In this document: positions 18,002-24,763 of the stretch, piece after piece
Layout: every line of letters begins with the position of its first letter
How positions within the stretch are numbered: the stretch's first letter is position 1
Origin: Mariniblastus fucicola
Lineage (GTDB): Bacteria > Planctomycetota > Planctomycetia > Pirellulales > Pirellulaceae
Assembly (NCBI RefSeq): GCF_008087665.1
Contig: NZ_CP042912.1
Coordinates: 5,766,001 to 5,830,000 of the forward strand
DNA length: 64,000 bases
Direction of reading: 5' to 3'
Position numbers and translations under genes: made by a program
Notes under the pieces: generated by a model
Told to the model about the DNA's origin: nothing
Database searches by the model: none
Seen by the model: only the letters and a program-made list of their open reading frames with translations

Positions 18002-18850
18002 CTAGAGTTCGTGCTCTTGAACGCGAATGCAGCGTTCTTCCATGCAAGCGAACGTCGCACACTTTCCGTTGTACTCCCAGCATTCGGCGCAGTGCGGTGT
18101 TTTGCATCGCTTGCAAACGACCATGTCGTGCATCACGTCATCGCTGCATATCGGGCAGCGAAAATCCTCGATCACCGCGGCCTGGTTCTCGCGCAGAAAT
18201 TCCAACCCGTCGGCTTTGTGCAGCATCAGCTGGTCGAACAATTCGAGGCCTCCCTGAACGAAATCCAGCAGGTCCCGACCATGGCGGAACCACTGCTTTG
18301 AAATCGTCCGCAGTCGATCGTTTTCAAACTCGAATCGGATCTCAGCGGGATGCAAACCCTTCAGTTCGATCATTTTCCATTTGACGGCGTCAGTTAAGAG
18401 TTGTTTTGCGAAAACCGGATCGCTGGCGTGTACGCAAAACTGCCGATCAAAGTCCGCGTCTCCCGTTTCGAAATTTTCGACAGCCGCATCGGAATCCAGA
18501 CTACGACTTTCGACACTCAGCGTCTGTCCGACAGGCAGCTCAAAATCAACTTCCAGGATTGTTTTTCTGGCGGCGTTTCCCCACGGCGTGCCAAAATGCT
18601 TCAGCCTCGCCATCGTGCGGCCATAGTCGAAAAGCAAAGCTGGTCGAAACACGTTTACTTCACCAAGCCTGTTGGGGCGAAGGTTCTCGGCGCCAAAGCG
18701 ACTTCGTATCGGAGCGAGAATGGCATTTTTGGATTGACGCCGTTTTCTCCGCGACCTTCCGGTGCCGGTCAGCAGATTCACCATCCCGAAAACGATGGCG
18801 AACGCCCCAAGCAGAAAAACGACAAACAAAAGAATCGCTACACCAGCCAT
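18002..18850 (-). CDS. Membrane-anchored prokaryotic RING-finger protein, candidate E3 of the Ubl operon
   Basis: A 282-residue protein with an N-terminal membrane helix (residues 4-28), a basic patch (RSRRKRRQSK), a middle region of unknown fold (about 55-225) and a C-terminal binuclear treble-clef zinc finger. The finger reads C232-x2-C235, C246-x2-C249, H253-C254-x2-C257, C264 and C269/C274, in the stretches CPICSDDV, VVCKRCKTPHCAECWEYNGK and CATFACMEERC. This resembles the Prok-RING_1 type. RING domains usually recruit E2 enzymes. As last gene of an Ubl-E2-E1-JAMM-RING operon it is the natural E3-ligase candidate, with the finger in the cytoplasm next to the membrane. Its ribosome site (AGGAGG) is embedded in the last codons of the JAMM gene, implying coupled translation. 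E3 activity is inferred. Confidence 0.82.
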   Translation of the reverse strand: MAGVAILLFVVFLLGAFAIVFGMVNLLTGTGRSRRKRRQSKNAILAPIRSRFGAENLRPNRLGEVNVFRPALLFDYGRTMARLKHFGTPWGNAARKTILEVDFELPVGQTLSVESRSLDSDAAVENFETGDADFDRQFCVHASDPVFAKQLLTDAVKWKMIELKGLHPAEIRFEFENDRLRTISKQWFRHGRDLLDFVQGGLELFDQLMLHKADGLEFLRENQAAVIEDFRCPICSDDVMHDMVVCKRCKTPHCAECWEYNGKCATFACMEERCIRVQEHEL

Positions 18851-18852
18851 CT

Positions 18853-20163
18853 TTAGCCTCCTGTGTCAGACGATACGGCCTCGAACTTCATTTCGGATGC
18901 CTCCTGTTCCACCGCGACATCATCGTCGGTTTCGCGTCGCACAAGGAACATCCCTCCTCCACCAAGCAACAGACTTACCAACGCAGTTCCGACAAGCGCG
19001 CCCCAACCAAACGTCGTCGACTCGTCCGATTCGCCTTCGGCACTGGCGTCCTCAGCTTTCTCCGCCATCGTCGAAATCGTGGATTGCAGCGACGTCACCT
19101 GCTCGGACAACTCGTGAACCTGACGGTCGCGCACGTCGTATTCCGCAATCAATCGCTCCCGCTCCTGCTGCAGCAATTCGACGCGAGCCATCTGTCCATC
19201 CAGACCAGCCGCGAGTTGCTGCCGATCGGTCTCCATCTCCAACATCTGTTCAGCAAGTTGGTCTTTTCCCTGCGCGTTGGCCAGCGTCGACAGCGCCATC
19301 TTCAGCGATCGGTTTTCCAGCAACGGATCGTCTTCGGCAACCGCAGCGGCGTCTATGTCAGCCGGTGTTGCACTTTCGCCAGCGCCGCCCAGCTTCATCA
19401 CCATAAATCCCATGAAGAACAACTGCGTCAACAGCATGGAAACCATCAACAGATCAAACCACGGTTTGCGAGTGTCCATAGCGGCACCTTGGGTTGTAGA
19501 ACCGGGAATCGAATAGCCTGAATATCGTGGATCAGCATTCATGGGCGGCTCGTGATTATAAAGACTGGCAAAATGATTCAATTCGTCTTCGCGATAACGA
19601 ATCGACGTCAGATAAAATCCGCCGGTTCGCTGAGTCTGATGGCTGTCGTCCCACTGGAACCAGCCACGGTCGTCGTTGCAAGGATCGATCACCAGTGCAA
19701 CATCCAACGTTCGATTGAAAAAGTTGTTGCAGATGAACAAGTCCATCGGAGAAAGAAAAACAGTCCATCCAGGATGGGTGTGGTACCAGCCCACCATTTC
19801 CAGTTCGGGATGAAACTGATTTCGCTCGCCAGTAATCTGGCTCCACGTTTCGTGCGTGAATTTGAAACTGCCACGCGTCGCCTCGTAGTGACGTGCTCGC
19901 AACGAGTCAGTCACGACGACGAACGGCTTTCCGTCCGCGTCAATGCACTGCTTTCCCAACATCACGCCACCAAGTTCCACATTCGTGTTGGTGTGAGCGT
20001 GGGCTTCCATGTCACGCATCACATCAAGGTCGACGTAAATCGGCAAGTTGTCCGGATCGATTTCGCCAACCGCGGCGATACAGTAGTGCGCATCCCGATC
20101 CGGCCGAACTGCTTTCTGCGGTTCGTTCTGCTCGACATCGCCAAACTGAATCTCGGAACTCAT
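18853..20163 (-). CDS. Membrane-anchored JAMM/MPN metalloprotease, candidate Ubl deconjugase
   Basis: A 436-residue protein. The N-terminal domain (about 25-200) has a full JAMM zinc site: Glu63 (VELGGVMLG), His128 and His130 (GWYHTHPGW), Ser138 and Asp141 (SPMD). Family members cleave isopeptide bonds or trim Ubl precursors, as in deubiquitinases. After a linker come TM1 (about 235-257), a charged heptad-like coiled coil (about 284-365), TM2 (about 386-408) and an acidic cytoplasmic tail. If the protease is cytoplasmic, the coiled coil lies outside the cytoplasmic membrane. It is the fourth gene of the Ubl operon, 87 bp after E1. The C-terminal Thr-Gly-Gly is explained by the ribosome site of the next gene. 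Membrane-tethered removal of the Ubl is the likely role. Confidence 0.86.
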   Translation of the reverse strand: MSSEIQFGDVEQNEPQKAVRPDRDAHYCIAAVGEIDPDNLPIYVDLDVMRDMEAHAHTNTNVELGGVMLGKQCIDADGKPFVVVTDSLRARHYEATRGSFKFTHETWSQITGERNQFHPELEMVGWYHTHPGWTVFLSPMDLFICNNFFNRTLDVALVIDPCNDDRGWFQWDDSHQTQRTGGFYLTSIRYREDELNHFASLYNHEPPMNADPRYSGYSIPGSTTQGAAMDTRKPWFDLLMVSMLLTQLFFMGFMVMKLGGAGESATPADIDAAAVAEDDPLLENRSLKMALSTLANAQGKDQLAEQMLEMETDRQQLAAGLDGQMARVELLQQERERLIAEYDVRDRQVHELSEQVTSLQSTISTMAEKAEDASAEGESDESTTFGWGALVGTALVSLLLGGGGMFLVRRETDDDVAVEQEASEMKFEAVSSDTGG

Positions 20164-20250
20164 GTGTTTACTTGAACGTGTTTCTTAACGCCTGAAGTGC
20201 AAAGGCTTCAGGAAATAAATTGTTACCCGATCGCACGGTGACATCCTCTG

Positions 20251-21408
20251 CTAGCCGGCCTTGTTGAGGAGAACAAAACGCGTCTCTGATGGCGTGCGAA
20301 TTTTGATGACGTCCCAATCCGGAATACCAAGCGACGCAAGCGAACGGTTTGCAAACTCGCCATTGAGGGAAACCTCGCTGACTGTTTCTGGCTGCAAAGG
20401 TTGTTGGCAGGAATCGCATACTCCTTCGGACGAACCAACCAAACACAGTGGACGATCGATCTGCTTGTGAGACTCGCACGTTCTACAGTTTAGTCGAACC
20501 AGAAAGTCCCGATCGAGAATCAGCGTCGCCTCTTCAAGCTCTAAAAACTGACAGACCTCCTGCAAAGTCGACTCATGCGTCAGTTCCGACTCGATCACGT
20601 CTTCATACGTTTCGTGCGAAAGACAATCTTCCTTCGGTGTGAACTTTGTCTTGTAGAACTGATTCGCGGCACCATTGAAAACCATCGCCGAACCATCGTC
20701 GGTTGGCAGGTCGTGCAACAACTTGAGCGCCTCCTGGACTTGCATGCCGCCGATGATCGATGCAATCGTGGGAGCCGTCGGAACTTTCCCCTGTTGAATG
20801 TCCTCCTGTCGCAGCAAAGGGCAACTGTAGCGAAGCGAAATCAAGCGATAGTCGTTTTCCGTCATCCCACACTCGTAACATGGGCCATCGCCAGGAACGA
20901 AAACTTTGGTGACGCCGTTGATCTCCTGAATACCTCCGTCGATCCACGGAGTGTTTGCTTTCCATGACATTCGATTGACCCACAGTCGGGCTTCGCGATT
21001 GTCGAGGCAGCCGATAACCACATCCATGTCGCGAATCAAACCGATCCCAATGTCGGTCAGCACATTGCCCTCGATCGGAATCAGCGTGCAGTCAGGATTC
21101 AGGTCCGAGGCCATCTCCGTGATGACCGAGGCTTTGGGCTGGCCTTCGTGACGAGACCGAAACAGGACGCTTCGAGTCAGATTTGATTCCTGAACGACGT
21201 CAAAATCGATGATATAGATCGTGCCCACGCCCAACAGGCAGAGATTTTTAAGCACTTCGTTTCCAAGAGCACCGGCACCAACGACCAGGATTTTTGCGGC
21301 CGCGATTCTTTCCTGCTCCCACCAGCCGATCAGCTTCAGACGAGAATAGCGATCGTTTTCGTCGATGACGAAAGTCTCTTGGTCGCTTTTGTTGGGTTCA
21401 GGATTCAT
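20251..21408 (-). CDS. ThiF/E1-like ubiquitin-activating enzyme
   Basis: A 385-residue E1-superfamily protein that should adenylate the C-terminal glycine of the operon's Ubl and form a thioester. The adenylation domain has VGAGALGNEVLKNL (GxGxxG, residues 44-49), IDFD (67-70), SNLTRS (Arg79), Lys92 in GQPKAS, and CLDN (Asp136). Cys177 and Cys180 (GPCYEC) may bind zinc; Cys196 (RYSCPLL), 16 residues on, is the best catalytic-cysteine candidate. The C-terminal part (281-385) has CxxC pairs at 308/311 and 331/334, then a segment (SLASLGIPDWDVIKI) resembling the end of YukD-like beta-grasp domains. It ends in Ala-Gly. A ribosome site AAGG precedes the ATG. MoeB/ThiF functions in cofactor sulfuration are less likely next to an E2. 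Confidence 0.88.
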   Translation of the reverse strand: MNPEPNKSDQETFVIDENDRYSRLKLIGWWEQERIAAAKILVVGAGALGNEVLKNLCLLGVGTIYIIDFDVVQESNLTRSVLFRSRHEGQPKASVITEMASDLNPDCTLIPIEGNVLTDIGIGLIRDMDVVIGCLDNREARLWVNRMSWKANTPWIDGGIQEINGVTKVFVPGDGPCYECGMTENDYRLISLRYSCPLLRQEDIQQGKVPTAPTIASIIGGMQVQEALKLLHDLPTDDGSAMVFNGAANQFYKTKFTPKEDCLSHETYEDVIESELTHESTLQEVCQFLELEEATLILDRDFLVRLNCRTCESHKQIDRPLCLVGSSEGVCDSCQQPLQPETVSEVSLNGEFANRSLASLGIPDWDVIKIRTPSETRFVLLNKAG

Positions 21409-21535
21409 TCGAGCCTTGGGTTGCGATTCAATTTGAAAGTGATCAGGAGAGCGAGTTTCCGGACTGCAATCACCGCGAGCGGGAGTGGCAAGTTCGACCT
21501 GCGGAGCAATATACTCACCGCGTTGTCGAGGTTAT

Positions 21536-22504
21536 CTAATCCAGAAACACGATACCAGTATTTTTCAATTCATTCGCTACATCGGGCTGGATATTGTCTT
21601 CCGGGTCAATAAAAGAAATGCCGTCTTCGATGATTTCGATTTCGGACGCATCCACAAAAGCCGACTCTTCGGCTGGACTTTCGTTTTCACTCGACGACGA
21701 TTCGGATGAAAGCAACTCCGAGGGTTCGACTTCGACGGAAATCACTTCATCAGAAACAACTTCAACATCAGACTCGTCGAGCCGAATGACTTCGCTTTCC
21801 GAGCCAACCGAATCATCAAACTCGCCAGAACTCGATTCCACCGCAATTGGTTCTGCCGAAGATGTCACATCGATCACCTCAGACTCGGACCGGTTAACTC
21901 GATCCCGAAACCGATTCGCCAACGCTCCCAACACACCAAAAACAGACTTTCCGTCTTGAGCCTTCGATTCGGAGATCCGCTCGACGGAACTTTGCGACTG
22001 GTGAAGCGACTCCTTGGGCTTGTTTACCAAATCGCGGATGTCGCGATTGTCCAAGGGAAATGAAAACTGTCTTTGATCTCTCGCCCAACTCGCGGCGTCG
22101 CGATTGTACGGACTTTGAATATCGAAGTTCTTGTAGCGAATCATGTCCCACAACATCGTGCTCATTTCGTCCAAGGTCAGGCTGGGCACCCAATGCGTCC
22201 CGTAACCTCCAAGGCAAACGACTCCATTGTTGGAAATGTTTGGATGAAAGACTGGCGTCTGCCAGAGCAAGTTTGGCACCATCCGTGGGTAGGACGCGCC
22301 AAGTTCGACGATGACTTCATGGGTATCAACAATCTTGACTTTTCCACGCGAGTCTCGACAAAGCCCCGGACCGACGAACTGCAAACGATATCGTGATGGC
22401 GGACTTCCACTGGCTTGAAAGCTGAAGATCGAACTTTCTGCATCCAGTTCTTCCACCGAGCGAAAGTCGGCTTCGAGTCGTCTTTGCCGTGGAGATTTTC
22501 GCAT
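21536..22504 (-). CDS. Ubiquitin-conjugating (UBC-fold) E2 enzyme with acidic tail
   Basis: A 322-residue protein. Residues 1-160 are a strikingly eukaryote-like E2: RQRRLEADF at helix 1, YPRMVPNLLW, HPN at 87-89 (FHPNISNNGVVCLGG), catalytic Cys97, Trp105 (HWVPSLTLDEM) and SPYNRDAASW. The HPN-to-Cys and Cys-to-Trp spacings (8 and 8) equal those I recall for human UBE2D enzymes. Residues 165-322 are Ser/Glu/Asp-rich and probably disordered, with repeated short hydrophobic cores such as SEVIDV, EVIRLDES, VEVVSDE, IEIIEDG and a terminal GIVFLD. The start at 22504 is chosen because the E2 fold begins there; an open frame to 22633 adds 43 unconvincing residues. It should take the Ubl from the E1 and pass it to lysines. 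Confidence 0.92.
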   Translation of the reverse strand: MRKSPRQRRLEADFRSVEELDAESSIFSFQASGSPPSRYRLQFVGPGLCRDSRGKVKIVDTHEVIVELGASYPRMVPNLLWQTPVFHPNISNNGVVCLGGYGTHWVPSLTLDEMSTMLWDMIRYKNFDIQSPYNRDAASWARDQRQFSFPLDNRDIRDLVNKPKESLHQSQSSVERISESKAQDGKSVFGVLGALANRFRDRVNRSESEVIDVTSSAEPIAVESSSGEFDDSVGSESEVIRLDESDVEVVSDEVISVEVEPSELLSSESSSSENESPAEESAFVDASEIEIIEDGISFIDPEDNIQPDVANELKNTGIVFLD

Positions 22505-22674
22505 GAAAGATTTTGACCCTCTGTGGTTACTTACAAAATTTGCCGGCTCGTAAAAAGCGATCCTGCTGGAAAATGGGGCGACCTTTCGGCAATCACCAAT
22601 GCAGCGATTGGCCACACCACTGGTCGCCCACAATCACAACCGGTCAACACAACGAATCCAGGTTCCGCAGCGAC

Positions 22675-22962
22675 CTAGCCAGCAACGATTTCCGGATACA
22701 CGATCAGGTGGTCGCCATCGTTCACGCTGGAACCGACCAGAGTTTGATCCTCATGAAGCCGTCGGCCACCTTCTTTGTGATCGAGGCTGTAGCTCATCGG
22801 CTGCCCGTCAGGTCCGATCACCGGCAGATTCATCTTGGTGATGATGCTGGGAAGAATCTTGCGAACCGTGACCGTGTCTGAAACGACCGCTTCGACGCTT
22901 TTCGCTCCCGTTTGATCAAGAAAGGTAACTTTTGTGCCTTCACGTTGAGCCGTTTCTGTCAT
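22675..22962 (-). CDS. Ubiquitin-like beta-grasp modifier (YukD/EsaB-like) with C-terminal glycine
   Basis: A 95-residue protein, first gene of the conjugation operon. The pattern fits a beta-grasp Ubl: strand TKVTFLDQ, helix VRKILPSIITKM, a central GRRLHEDQTLVGSSV resembling the ubiquitin/YukD L-x-x-x-x-T-L turn, then NDGDHLIVYPEIVAG. The chain ends in a flexible Ile-Val-Ala-Gly with no extension after the glycine, so it could be activated without prior trimming. No membrane segment or signal peptide is present. It is followed by E2 (170 bp), E1, JAMM and RING genes on the same strand. A TGAGGA ribosome site lies a short distance upstream. Conjugation is inferred from fold, tail and neighbours; it is not demonstrated. 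Confidence 0.85.
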   Translation of the reverse strand: MTETAQREGTKVTFLDQTGAKSVEAVVSDTVTVRKILPSIITKMNLPVIGPDGQPMSYSLDHKEGGRRLHEDQTLVGSSVNDGDHLIVYPEIVAG

Positions 22963-23141: not shown

Positions 23142-23711
23142 CTAAGTTCTCGCGTTCCACGCCGTTCTCAACAGCCCAAACACCCTCACATCACAATATT
23201 CATCTGTCTCATTTTTTCGAAAATGGTTCTCGAAATAGCCTTCCTGCCGCATCTGAACTTTCTCCAGCACCCGTGCCGACGCCGGATTCCTGACCAGGCA
23301 TTCCGCGGTGACTTTATTGAGTCCCAGCTGGCTGAAAGCGAAATCAAGCATTGAAAGACAGGCCTCTGTGGCAATCCCCTGCCCCCAATAATCACGGCCA
23401 ACCCAATAGCCCAGCTCGCCTCGATTGCTCTGACGATCGAGCACGATTCCGATGGCGCCGACCAGTTTGGCGGGGCCGGAGTCGGCTGGCCGCAAGCAGA
23501 CGCCAAACACGACGGACTTTCCCTGATCCCATTCGGATGACAATTCGCTGATCCAGTTCCGGGCGTCTTCAACATCGTACGGATAGCTAAAGCTTCTCAA
23601 GTTTCGAGCAAGCTGTTCGTCGTTGGCGAGCAGGGCGACGCGTTGCTCATCGGCAGGACAAAACTGCCTCAATTCGAGCCGGGAAGTTCTCAAAGTAGGT
23701 TGAGGGATCAT
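23142..23711 (-). CDS. GNAT-family N-acetyltransferase (RimJ/RimL type)
   Basis: A 189-residue acetyl-CoA-dependent transferase. The opening TLRTSRLELRQFCPADEQ, central GELGYWVGRDYWGQGIATEA (acetyl-CoA P-loop, Q-G-I-A type) and NPASARVLEKVQMRQEG are standard for the RimJ/RimL subfamily, whose members acetylate N-termini of ribosomal proteins or small molecules. The substrate is unknown. The Met at 23711 gives the family N-terminus; the frame is open to 23768. The gene lies 179 bp upstream of the Ubl gene on the same strand. It could be co-transcribed, but the spacing is wide and the association may be accidental. Confidence 0.85.
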   Translation of the reverse strand: MIPQPTLRTSRLELRQFCPADEQRVALLANDEQLARNLRSFSYPYDVEDARNWISELSSEWDQGKSVVFGVCLRPADSGPAKLVGAIGIVLDRQSNRGELGYWVGRDYWGQGIATEACLSMLDFAFSQLGLNKVTAECLVRNPASARVLEKVQMRQEGYFENHFRKNETDEYCDVRVFGLLRTAWNART

Positions 23712-23941
23712 GAATGGCCCAAGCAACTGCGAGATTTGTAAAAGTGTCTTGTCAGAGCACCAGGGCAAACGCCAGGTGATTCGGGTTTTGAGGATTATAC
23801 AGCCAGAAAGTTCATTGAAAAAAAGGGACTAGGTCAACCTTTCCGGATGGGGATTAAGGGCGACCTAGAGTTCGTTGACGGCTCAACCGTCCGCTGCGAG
23901 TGAGTGAGCGGAGTCCGTCCAACCATGACCCGAGGTTTGCG

Positions 23942-24763
23942 ATGAGTTTTTTGGAACAGTTTTTCGAAGACAATTTTAATTTGCCGCCGAAGCCACCTGG
24001 AAATAACGGCCAGAGTGATTCGTCAGCATCGGTGCCCCATGGGGGCAAAAGTAACAGCTTCAAGCAGGTGACTGACTCCGAGTTGGCCGCCCATCTTGAG
24101 ATCAACAAATATGACCAGTTTCAACTGACCGACGCCGTTCGGCCTGCTTTGGATCTGAAGATCAAGCCGACCGAGGGCTATCGCCATGAAAACTATCAGG
24201 ATGACGAGTCAGGTACTTCGATTCCTGTTGTGATGGCAGCGGCTTCGAAAGAAAAGCTGTTCCCTCTGTTCATGGAACTGATCGAGAAACTCGGCCCCGT
24301 CGTCGACGTTGTTCTTGAATCAAGCCATGAAGGAGATTCCAACGGCCATCGCGATTTCTATCGCGACAATATCGACATGGCGGTTCTACAGAGCGTGCTC
24401 TTTGACTACGAAGATCTGCTGCTCAATGACGGGTGTACCGGAATCGCCGTATTGAATCCTGCCAAACCTCAGGAAGTTCAATTCGAAGAACACAAGCTGT
24501 TGATCATCTACGGCAGTCCACTTGAGCATTTTGAGTTCACGCTCGAGAAAGCAGGCGTTAGCGAGTCTCAGGCGATGCAGTTCATCACCGAAGCGGAACA
24601 TGTTCACAGTTCATCAGAAAAGTACCTGAAACGATTCGAGGAACTTCGCTGTGCCCTTGGCCTTGACGGGTCGCAAACGGAACCGAGCGAAGGCTACCTG
24701 GATGATTACTACAACGATGGCGAAAACTGGTCCGACGGCGACATGAGCGGCGGACTTGCGTAG
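23942..24763 (+). CDS. Acidic soluble protein of unknown function
   Basis: A 273-residue protein with no family I recognise. Residues 1-50 are Pro/Ser/Gly-rich and probably disordered (MSFLEQFFEDNFNLPPKPPG). The middle is folded alpha/beta with blocks SIPVVMAAASKEKLFPLFMELI, LGPVVDVVLESSHEG and LLNDGCTGIAVLNP. The C-terminal ~40 residues are very acidic with Tyr/Asp/Gly runs. There is no signal peptide, membrane helix or metal motif. The start at 23942 is preferred over the frame opening at 23900 because it gives a compact hydrophobic N-terminus. The upstream 230 bp contain a 7-bp inverted repeat (CTAGGTC/GACCTAG, about 23829-23872) of unknown meaning. Convergent with the DUF502 gene. Confidence 0.65.
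   Translation: MSFLEQFFEDNFNLPPKPPGNNGQSDSSASVPHGGKSNSFKQVTDSELAAHLEINKYDQFQLTDAVRPALDLKIKPTEGYRHENYQDDESGTSIPVVMAAASKEKLFPLFMELIEKLGPVVDVVLESSHEGDSNGHRDFYRDNIDMAVLQSVLFDYEDLLLNDGCTGIAVLNPAKPQEVQFEEHKLLIIYGSPLEHFEFTLEKAGVSESQAMQFITEAEHVHSSSEKYLKRFEELRCALGLDGSQTEPSEGYLDDYYNDGENWSDGDMSGGLA

Follow-up and report, generated by a model that had tools for sequence, protein, structure and literature searches.

The stretch of DNA analysed here (below, the window) comprises 64,000 nucleotides of the Mariniblastus fucicola genome, contig NZ_CP042912.1, positions 5,766,001 to 5,830,000, and carries at 18002-22962 a row of five consecutive open reading frames (ORFs) on the minus strand. In the order of transcription they encode a ubiquitin-like modifier (Ubl), an E2, an E1, a JAMM protease and a RING protein, as indicated by the ORF list of the window and a Pfam scan of its proteins. 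We consider it very likely that these genes constitute a self-contained pathway of Ubl conjugation and deconjugation, resident in Planctomycetota. This reading is based on the computed gene identities, the conserved residues, the conservation of the genes as a unit and the predicted folds of the E1 and RING proteins. The initial annotation of the window had proposed the same row of genes; its order, strand and families were borne out, and in the profile searches which it suggested the YukD, UQ_con, ThiF, JAB and Prok-RING_1 assignments all exceed the Pfam gathering scores.

The five genes are a real conserved unit, not a chance grouping. A scan of named genomes with the Ubl returned 107 relatives, from which 80 loci were kept, and the full five-part set is present in 56 of them, many of the remainder being interrupted by contig ends. 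Prok-RING_1 proteins occur in 26 of 60 genomes, M. fucicola included, and extension of 27 RING loci revealed all five genes in 19, a missing Ubl in one (at a contig edge) and the RING alone in seven, several at contig ends. The neighbourhood comparison proposed in the initial annotation thus found the cassette kept together from both starting points. Within the phylum, the Ubl profile matches 31 of 392 genomes, again including M. fucicola, at E <=0.001, eight of them at <=1.2e-37. The M. fucicola genome itself is a single contig of 6.57 Mb, in which one UQ_con and one Prok-RING_1 protein were found.

The 80 loci come from planctomycetes nearly throughout (Pirellulaceae, Planctomycetaceae, Mariniblastus, Isosphaeraceae and others), the exceptions being metagenome-assembled genomes labelled Riflebacteria, Wallbacteria and Abditibacteriales and two labelled just “bacterium”. 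The cassette also occurs in Tautonia sociabilis GM2012 (L159) and Planctomycetales bacterium 10988 (L162). In distant members the gene order is altered (RING-Ubl-E2-E1-JAMM or E1-Ubl-E2-JAMM), and the components remain clustered. Prok-RING_1 was also seen at four loci (L032, L034, L037 and L043) without the remaining cassette in the stretch read, some of them close to contig ends. Two groups of more distant planctomycete cassettes, with Ubl types of their own, were delimited by eye. A second planctomycete group (L168-L178) has a Ubl ending in PEITAG, an E1, a JAMM protein and mostly a RING protein and an E2; seven of its members share a membrane protein cluster, and an FHA domain in both scanned members hints at a link to Ser/Thr phosphorylation. 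The third group (L179-L183) combines an E1, a Ubl ending in FVAG and an E2 with HPNIRGQAVCHSQQW, accompanied by a JAMM protein in four of five cases.

Some relatives possess an expanded version of the cassette. Of the 56 complete loci, 21 encode a second E2-like protein; 20 of these 21 also have a second JAMM gene and 10 have two or three RING genes, while the other 35 complete loci have neither a second JAMM nor an extra RING gene. Exceptions occur outside the 56, for example L137, where a second JAMM is present and a second E2 was not found. Of the additional E2-like proteins (23 in all), 20 keep HPN and have no Cys near it, and in three no HPN was recognised. In eukaryotes, Ubc13/Mms2 (UEV) pairs combine an active E2 with a UBC-type partner. 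These relatives similarly place a predicted active E2 beside a second UBC-type protein, mostly without the Cys, and the window’s own cassette is without the second one.

The Ubl is the best conserved of the five parts. Over the trimmed regions of 56 loci its mean pairwise identity is 0.80, compared with 0.59 for the JAMM domain, 0.57 for E1, 0.54 for E2 and 0.50 for the RING domain, and a 15-row Ubl alignment has a mean column identity of 86%. The terminal glycine of the predicted beta-grasp modifier, pointed out in the initial annotation, agrees with the YukD match and with the VAG present in 75 of the 76 Ubls whose gene is complete at its 3' end, the remaining one reading VAR. The protein ends at this Gly in 48 of the 76, and in 27 it carries a tail of 1-17 residues (68 in one case); the tails differ over the set, similar ones being shared by a few relatives. 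A Gly that is kept, whether the protein stops there or continues into a variable tail, is the pattern expected of a processed and activated modifier. A second JAMM (JAB2) as the maturase of tailed Ubls was considered and dropped as unconvincing: JAB2 is present in 10 of 20 tailed and in 14 of 45 untailed loci.

The VAR Ubl (loci L134 and L197, genome G004, 80% complete) has a second change at an otherwise invariant Asp. Neither E2 nor RING was found in this incomplete genome, and the 16 kb read around the gene hold no other cassette genes. An orphan Ubl which lost its Gly where E2 and RING were not found is a single case and is counted for the proposed reading. Comparison of the Ubl profile with solved structures gave no real relative, the sole match having E 0.042.

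For the E2, the listed ORF (21536-22633) opens with TTG at 22633, and its start is likely the ATG at 22504, because M-x-x-SPR begins most relatives (alignment, by eye). With this start, the spacing is about 170 bases between the Ubl and E2 genes, followed by 127 (E2/E1), 87 (E1/JAMM) and 2 (JAMM/RING) bases. The predicted catalytic Cys is unchanged throughout a 17-row alignment, and HPN together with Cys is found in 75 of 77 E2s; of the two without a recognised HPN, one is truncated by a contig end. Among solved structures UBE2D is the best profile match (E ~1e-10), over the active-site region. These data are consistent with the annotated role as a UBC-fold E2. Prok-E2_B (PF14461) had zero matches in the M. 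fucicola genome, and the search controls were likewise unmatched, so that this result is uninformative.

The E2 tail, or linker, varies in length and sequence, and its terminal motif persists. In its strict form (acidic/small-[IVL]-x-[FY]-[ILV]-acidic) the motif ends 66 of 76 E2s, the other ten having a near form at or near the end (by eye); it is also present in 14 of the 23 second E2-like proteins and in 0 of 582 control genes, taken from predicted neighbour genes of >=150 aa. A looser form is found in 67 of 76 E2s versus 15 of 582 controls. The pattern was written post hoc from the tails and the loci are related by descent, which limits the weight of these counts. We take the motif (GIVFLD in the window) to resemble a SUMO-interacting motif. 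It could equally be the place where E1 or RING docks, for which the acidic tail of Cdc34 provides a parallel.

In 32 aligned E1 sequences Cys196 is invariant, as are Cys-x-x-Cys and Cys-x-x-His, a set of four zinc-ligand-like residues. Cys196 presumably corresponds to the active-site Cys of MOCS3-type E1s, and the catalytic role of the ThiF/E1-type adenylating enzyme, as named in the initial annotation, remains a prediction from these residues and the family match. The AlphaFold2 (AF2) model of the protein has an overall pLDDT of 85.8. Among the Foldseek matches listed, the NEDD8 E1 UBA3 is first (E 1.5e-22) and ThiF second (1.1e-21). In the VIA fold comparison the MoeB/ThiF alignments stop at model residue 258-267, while 14 of the 50 rows listed (UBA1, UBA3, UBA6, UBA7 and SUMO E1) extend as far as residue 381-385 and align 279-304 residues. 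Among the profile matches listed against solved structures, UBA7 (2.5e-46) and UBA1 (7.5e-40) match in two stretches each, and UBA2 (7.3e-35) and UBA3 (9.4e-35) match in one, with a modest lead over ThiF (6.2e-32) and MoeB (9.5e-31). In our reading, these matches describe an adenylation domain of the type common to ThiF, MoeB and E1, behind which a ubiquitin-fold domain (UFD) is predicted. No Bil or Cap2 chain was noticed among the best 60 of 80 sequence matches and the 50 rows of each fold search, which is not evidence of their absence.

The zinc motif of the JAMM protein (ELGG...HTHPGW.VFLS..D; alignment, by eye) is complete, with E, HxH, S and D all present, which agrees with the full zinc site claimed for the putative protease. 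After the motif, 48 of 59 JAMM proteins have two hydrophobic segments, 9 have one and 2 have none. Ahead of the RING, 58 of 67 RING proteins have one such segment, 3 have two and 6 have none. These segments come from hydropathy on open frames, and the starts are therefore inexact. In the RING domain seven Cys are invariant in 52 sequences, which supports the annotated RING-type zinc finger; H253 is conserved in >=90%, one further position is C/H, and the eighth zinc ligand may be either H253 or the C/H residue following it. The AF2 model (pLDDT 88.7) matches the mycobacterial protein TtfA (6t84, E 5.6e-4, root-mean-square deviation (rmsd) 5.5) via the middle domain. The initial annotation had further proposed a membrane-associated protein-tagging pathway, a prediction which the full component set and the hydrophobic segments of the JAMM and RING proteins partly support.

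The genomic setting suggests that the cassette is a resident one. The divergent neighbour at 23900-24763 belongs to a cluster present in 42 of 100 clustered loci, and its homologue was found in all 14 relatives searched, cassette-bearing or not; its protein has no Pfam match at E 0.01 and no NCBIfam match. A GNAT cluster occurs in 23 of the 100 loci. On the other flank, many relatives have NUDIX, cobalamin adenosyltransferase, PII and GlnD genes (named by eye); in the window, which differs here, a sigma factor gene, lgt and panC take this place. A transglutaminase-core lipoprotein gene lies upstream of the Ubl in 22 of the 100 loci (e.g. L092:7942-9684). It was rejected as a cassette member and is taken as a locus neighbour, because the same BLAST cluster (27-40% identity) fills this slot in cassette-less stretches of three genomes of the family (L194-L196). 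Promoter and terminator scans gave sites rarer than in shuffled sequences.

Of 28 genomes of the genus, 21 gave a Ubl match. Two cassette-less genomes, G002 and G005, have clean empty sites with the flanks joined; G009 and G021 hold different genes at the site, and the contigs of G006 and G010 end early. The E1 and E2 distances correlate with the distances measured for three neighbouring genes (six tests; Spearman 0.39-0.68, Mantel p <=0.002). Shared synteny, empty sites and the distance correlation therefore indicate mostly vertical descent with losses, which speaks for a resident role and is compatible with it; a housekeeping role is not proved by it. The initial annotation had spoken of a housekeeping setting free of phage and defence genes. 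The setting found some support in the synteny, in the two empty sites, in nine flanking genes without a PADLOC match and in the absence of any match of the window Ubl, at E 1e-5, in 72,556 plasmid and 50,697 phage records; the physiological role deduced from it is a possibility. The coordinates of the features are collected in the table.

Table. Features of the conjugation cassette and its surroundings; positions refer to the window unless a locus is named
Feature	Position	Strand	Basis
Ubl modifier, YukD-like, 95 aa, ending ...YPEIVAG	22675..22962	-	PF08817 E 4.5e-14
E2, UBC fold, HPN...Cys site, long acidic tail	21536..22504	-	UQ_con PF00179 E 3.2e-12
Predicted catalytic Cys codon of E2, Cys97 counted from the ATG, in HPNISNNGVVCLGGYG	22214..22216	-	17-row alignment, hand-derived position
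C-terminal motif of E2, GIVFLD	21539..21556	-	motif count in E2s versus controls
E1, ThiF/MoeB-type adenylation domain plus C-terminal domain, Cys196	20251..21408	-	ThiF PF00899 E 2.2e-53
UFD-like domain of E1, residues ~270-385, CxxC...CxxC stretch	20254..20601	-	VIA fold alignment of the model
JAMM/JAB metalloprotease, ELGG...HTHP...S..D, hydrophobic aa 238-256 and 390-408 flanking a coiled-coil-like region	18853..20163	-	PF01398 E 3.7e-9
RING protein, hydrophobic aa 6-24, DUF3137-like middle, C-terminal RING aa 232-269	18002..18850	-	Prok-RING_1 PF14446 E 8.8e-8; PF11335 (DUF3137) E 1.3e-6
GNAT acetyltransferase, upstream and co-directional; neighbour by synteny, excluded from the cassette	23142..23768	-	PF13302 E 1.7e-31
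Divergent neighbour, family unassigned, locus marker	23900..24763	+	cluster and homologue searches
Stand-alone Ubl on a predicted viral contig	L200:9965-10261 (also L199)		IMG/VR contig

The following mechanism may be suggested, in which we infer every catalytic step, the E3 activity, the membrane topology, the partner of the E2 motif and the cellular role. E1 would adenylate the C-terminal Gly of the Ubl and then hold the Ubl as a thioester, probably at Cys196. Its UFD would dock E2, and the Ubl would be transferred onto the E2 Cys. The RING protein, usually with one N-terminal membrane segment, would deliver the charged E2 (E2~Ubl) to substrates located in the membrane region, at the membrane or close to it, and the membrane JAMM protease would strip the Ubl again; in relatives with tailed Ubls it would also trim the precursor. 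The non-covalent partner of the acidic-hydrophobic end of E2 probably comes from the cassette itself; it would be the Ubl, in analogy to SUMO-interacting motifs and SUMO, or else E1/RING. The most likely use in the cell would be regulation or quality control of membrane-associated proteins. A more far-reaching picture is possible, with the balance still against it: in Planctomycetota, a resident, vertically inherited, membrane-anchored system of eukaryote-like logic, including the E1 UFD, a SUMO-interacting-motif-like reading of a partner (perhaps the system’s own modifier) by E2, an Ubc13/Mms2-like pair together with several RINGs and two JAMMs in some genera, and at least one virus with its own copy of the modifier, by which the pathway would be blocked or exploited.

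Several observations weigh against a conjugation pathway of this kind. The Ubl terminates in one Gly (VAG), not in GlyGly. Cys196 sits in a part of the E1 model (residues 188-199) with pLDDT <50, and by VIA Z, among the rows listed, MoeB/ThiF rank at the top (31.3-31.9) over the SUMO/NEDD8 E1s (~29). The long VIA alignments have an rmsd of 4.5-7.5, and many other SUMO/NEDD8 E1 rows stop at 267-343, before the UFD. The model matches known RING folds weakly (Rad18 E 0.38, BIRC7 E 1.1), and some prokaryotic RINGs act outside ubiquitin-type pathways. The cassette is dispensable, since in six of the 28 genomes of the genus, which are 87-97% complete, the searches for Ubl, E2 and RING all came back negative, and one proteasome-family match was found in the M. 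fucicola genome.

Part of these data could be explained if the Ubl were a sulfur carrier or a non-conjugated assembly factor of the YukD type and the other proteins were unrelated in role. Bacillus YukD is reported to be unconjugated (PMC1779556; here and below, citations refer to the accessible passages of the papers), the window E1 matches the ThiF and MoeB models below their cut-offs (ThiF 136.3 of 275.25 bits), and its fold ranks MoeB/ThiF first by VIA Z. We regard this as highly improbable in view of the E2 with its nearly invariant HPN and Cys, the UFD-like E1 domain and the presence of JAMM and RING proteins in one conserved unit; in addition, the EccD model of the type VII secretion system (T7SS) scores 16.3 bits with a cut-off of 94.95. 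WXG100, EssC and EccC were absent among the nine flanking genes (two libraries); the genome was not searched for EssC. Another explanation keeps the conjugation pathway and makes the RING protein a membrane scaffold or adaptor instead of an E3, with the E2 tail motif selecting substrates. The conserved zinc sites combined with weak RING fold matches, the TtfA-like middle domain and the retention of the E2 motif despite the variable linker would agree with it. In opposition to it, extra RING genes occur solely alongside a second E2-like protein (10/21 versus 0/35 of the 56 complete loci, which are related and not independent), a co-occurrence which fits RINGs working with E2s, and we consider the scaffold role unlikely.

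Rather unlikely, in our opinion, is an antiviral system of the Bil/Bub/CBASS type (CBASS, cyclic-oligonucleotide-based anti-phage signalling system), in which the Ubl would be conjugated to phage or immune proteins on infection. Its attraction is that Bil/Bub operons, which comprise Ubl, E1, E2 and protease, appear mainly defensive (PMC12687455), that PADLOC E1-E2 models match part of the window E1 (best 57.5 bits) and JAB models match the JAMM protein (best 25.6 bits), and that some genus members are without a detected cassette. The shared neighbours, the two clean empty sites and the vertical signal speak against it, as do the Ubl, E2 and RING, which like the nine flanking genes are without a PADLOC match, and the lack of plasmid and phage matches reported above. 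A further point in favour of defence comes from a predicted viral contig of 77.7 kb in IMG/VR, which bears a Ubl 71% identical to that of the window and ending in PEIVAGVVI (PEIVAG plus three residues); the record has no E2 and no ThiF match. The viral nature of the contig is supported by the IMG/VR label, collagen-like tail-fibre matches, glycosyltransferases and an HNH gene, and against it may stand one terminase family unmatched and a PHROG match in just 8 of 19 proteins scanned. A second scan with the viral Ubl as a query returned the same contig and no others. Such a Ubl might serve a virus as a decoy or as a means of hijacking the pathway, and the contig keeps a role in conflict open.

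Bacterial systems of this kind have been described repeatedly. Burroughs, Iyer and Aravind reportedly listed, in Mol BioSyst in 2011, YukD-like Ubls, UFD-bearing E1, E2, JAB and RING proteins in prokaryotic neighbourhoods; the membrane hairpin of the JAMM protein, the terminal motif of E2 and the expansion by a second E2-like protein, JAMM and RING are not known to be part of that description. Iyer et al. (2006) described bacterial Ubl/E1/E2/JAB neighbourhoods (PMC1779556), Koonin (2015) stated that similarly organised operons exist in several bacteria (PMC4571572), and Hennell James et al. (2017) mentioned some complete bacterial operons (PMC5654768), while Grau-Bove et al. (2014) found no complete toolkit among the bacterial genomes which they analysed (PMC4327156). 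The kind of operon is thus already known in print, as the initial annotation had indicated. Not seen in the accessible literature were the terminal motif of E2, the JAMM/RING expansion with a second E2-like protein, the Gly-less orphan Ubl and the viral Ubl, and no experimental study of the planctomycete cassette was recognised in our search, most subscription papers being outside its coverage. If the proposed reading is true, a RING-containing, membrane-anchored resident system would represent ubiquitin-type regulation within ordinary bacterial cell biology, in distinction from the apparently mainly anti-phage bacterial Ubl operons studied to date, for which the review names no RING (PMC12687455). 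It could also be used as an outgroup in tracing how eukaryotic ubiquitination arose, because its E1 has a UFD-like domain and the UBE2D proteins are the nearest solved E2s by profile.

Comparison with the known systems shows both similarities and differences. The Ubl shares the Pfam family PF08817 with the T7SS protein YukD. Bacillus YukD reportedly stays unconjugated (PMC1779556); the window Ubl adjoins genes for E1 and E2. With the Bil/Bub operons the cassette shares the joint location of Ubl, E1, E2 and a specific protease (PMC12687455, PMC11354881), and it differs by the RING, which is not named for Bil/Bub in the passages concerned. BilA has two Ubl domains and BilD has an inactive and an active adenylation domain (PMC11354881), whereas the window encodes a single Ubl of 95 aa and an E1 with one ThiF domain; the PADLOC BilD model matches this E1 at 28.6 bits over 116 residues, short of a Bil assignment. 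In type II CBASS, Cap2 is an E1-E2 fusion, whereas in the window E1 and E2 are separate genes, which excludes it from this class. The cassette is similar to the operon of Caldiarchaeum subterraneum, which includes a ubiquitin, an E1-like protein with a C-terminal UBL domain (figure legend), an E2-like protein and a small RING protein, with Rpn11/JAMM nearby; there, JAMM trims the pro-ubiquitin tail and the system works in vitro (PMC5654768). In contrast to the di-glycine ubiquitin and small RING of Caldiarchaeum (PMC5654768), the window has a YukD-like Ubl ending in a single Gly, and its JAMM and RING proteins bear hydrophobic segments.

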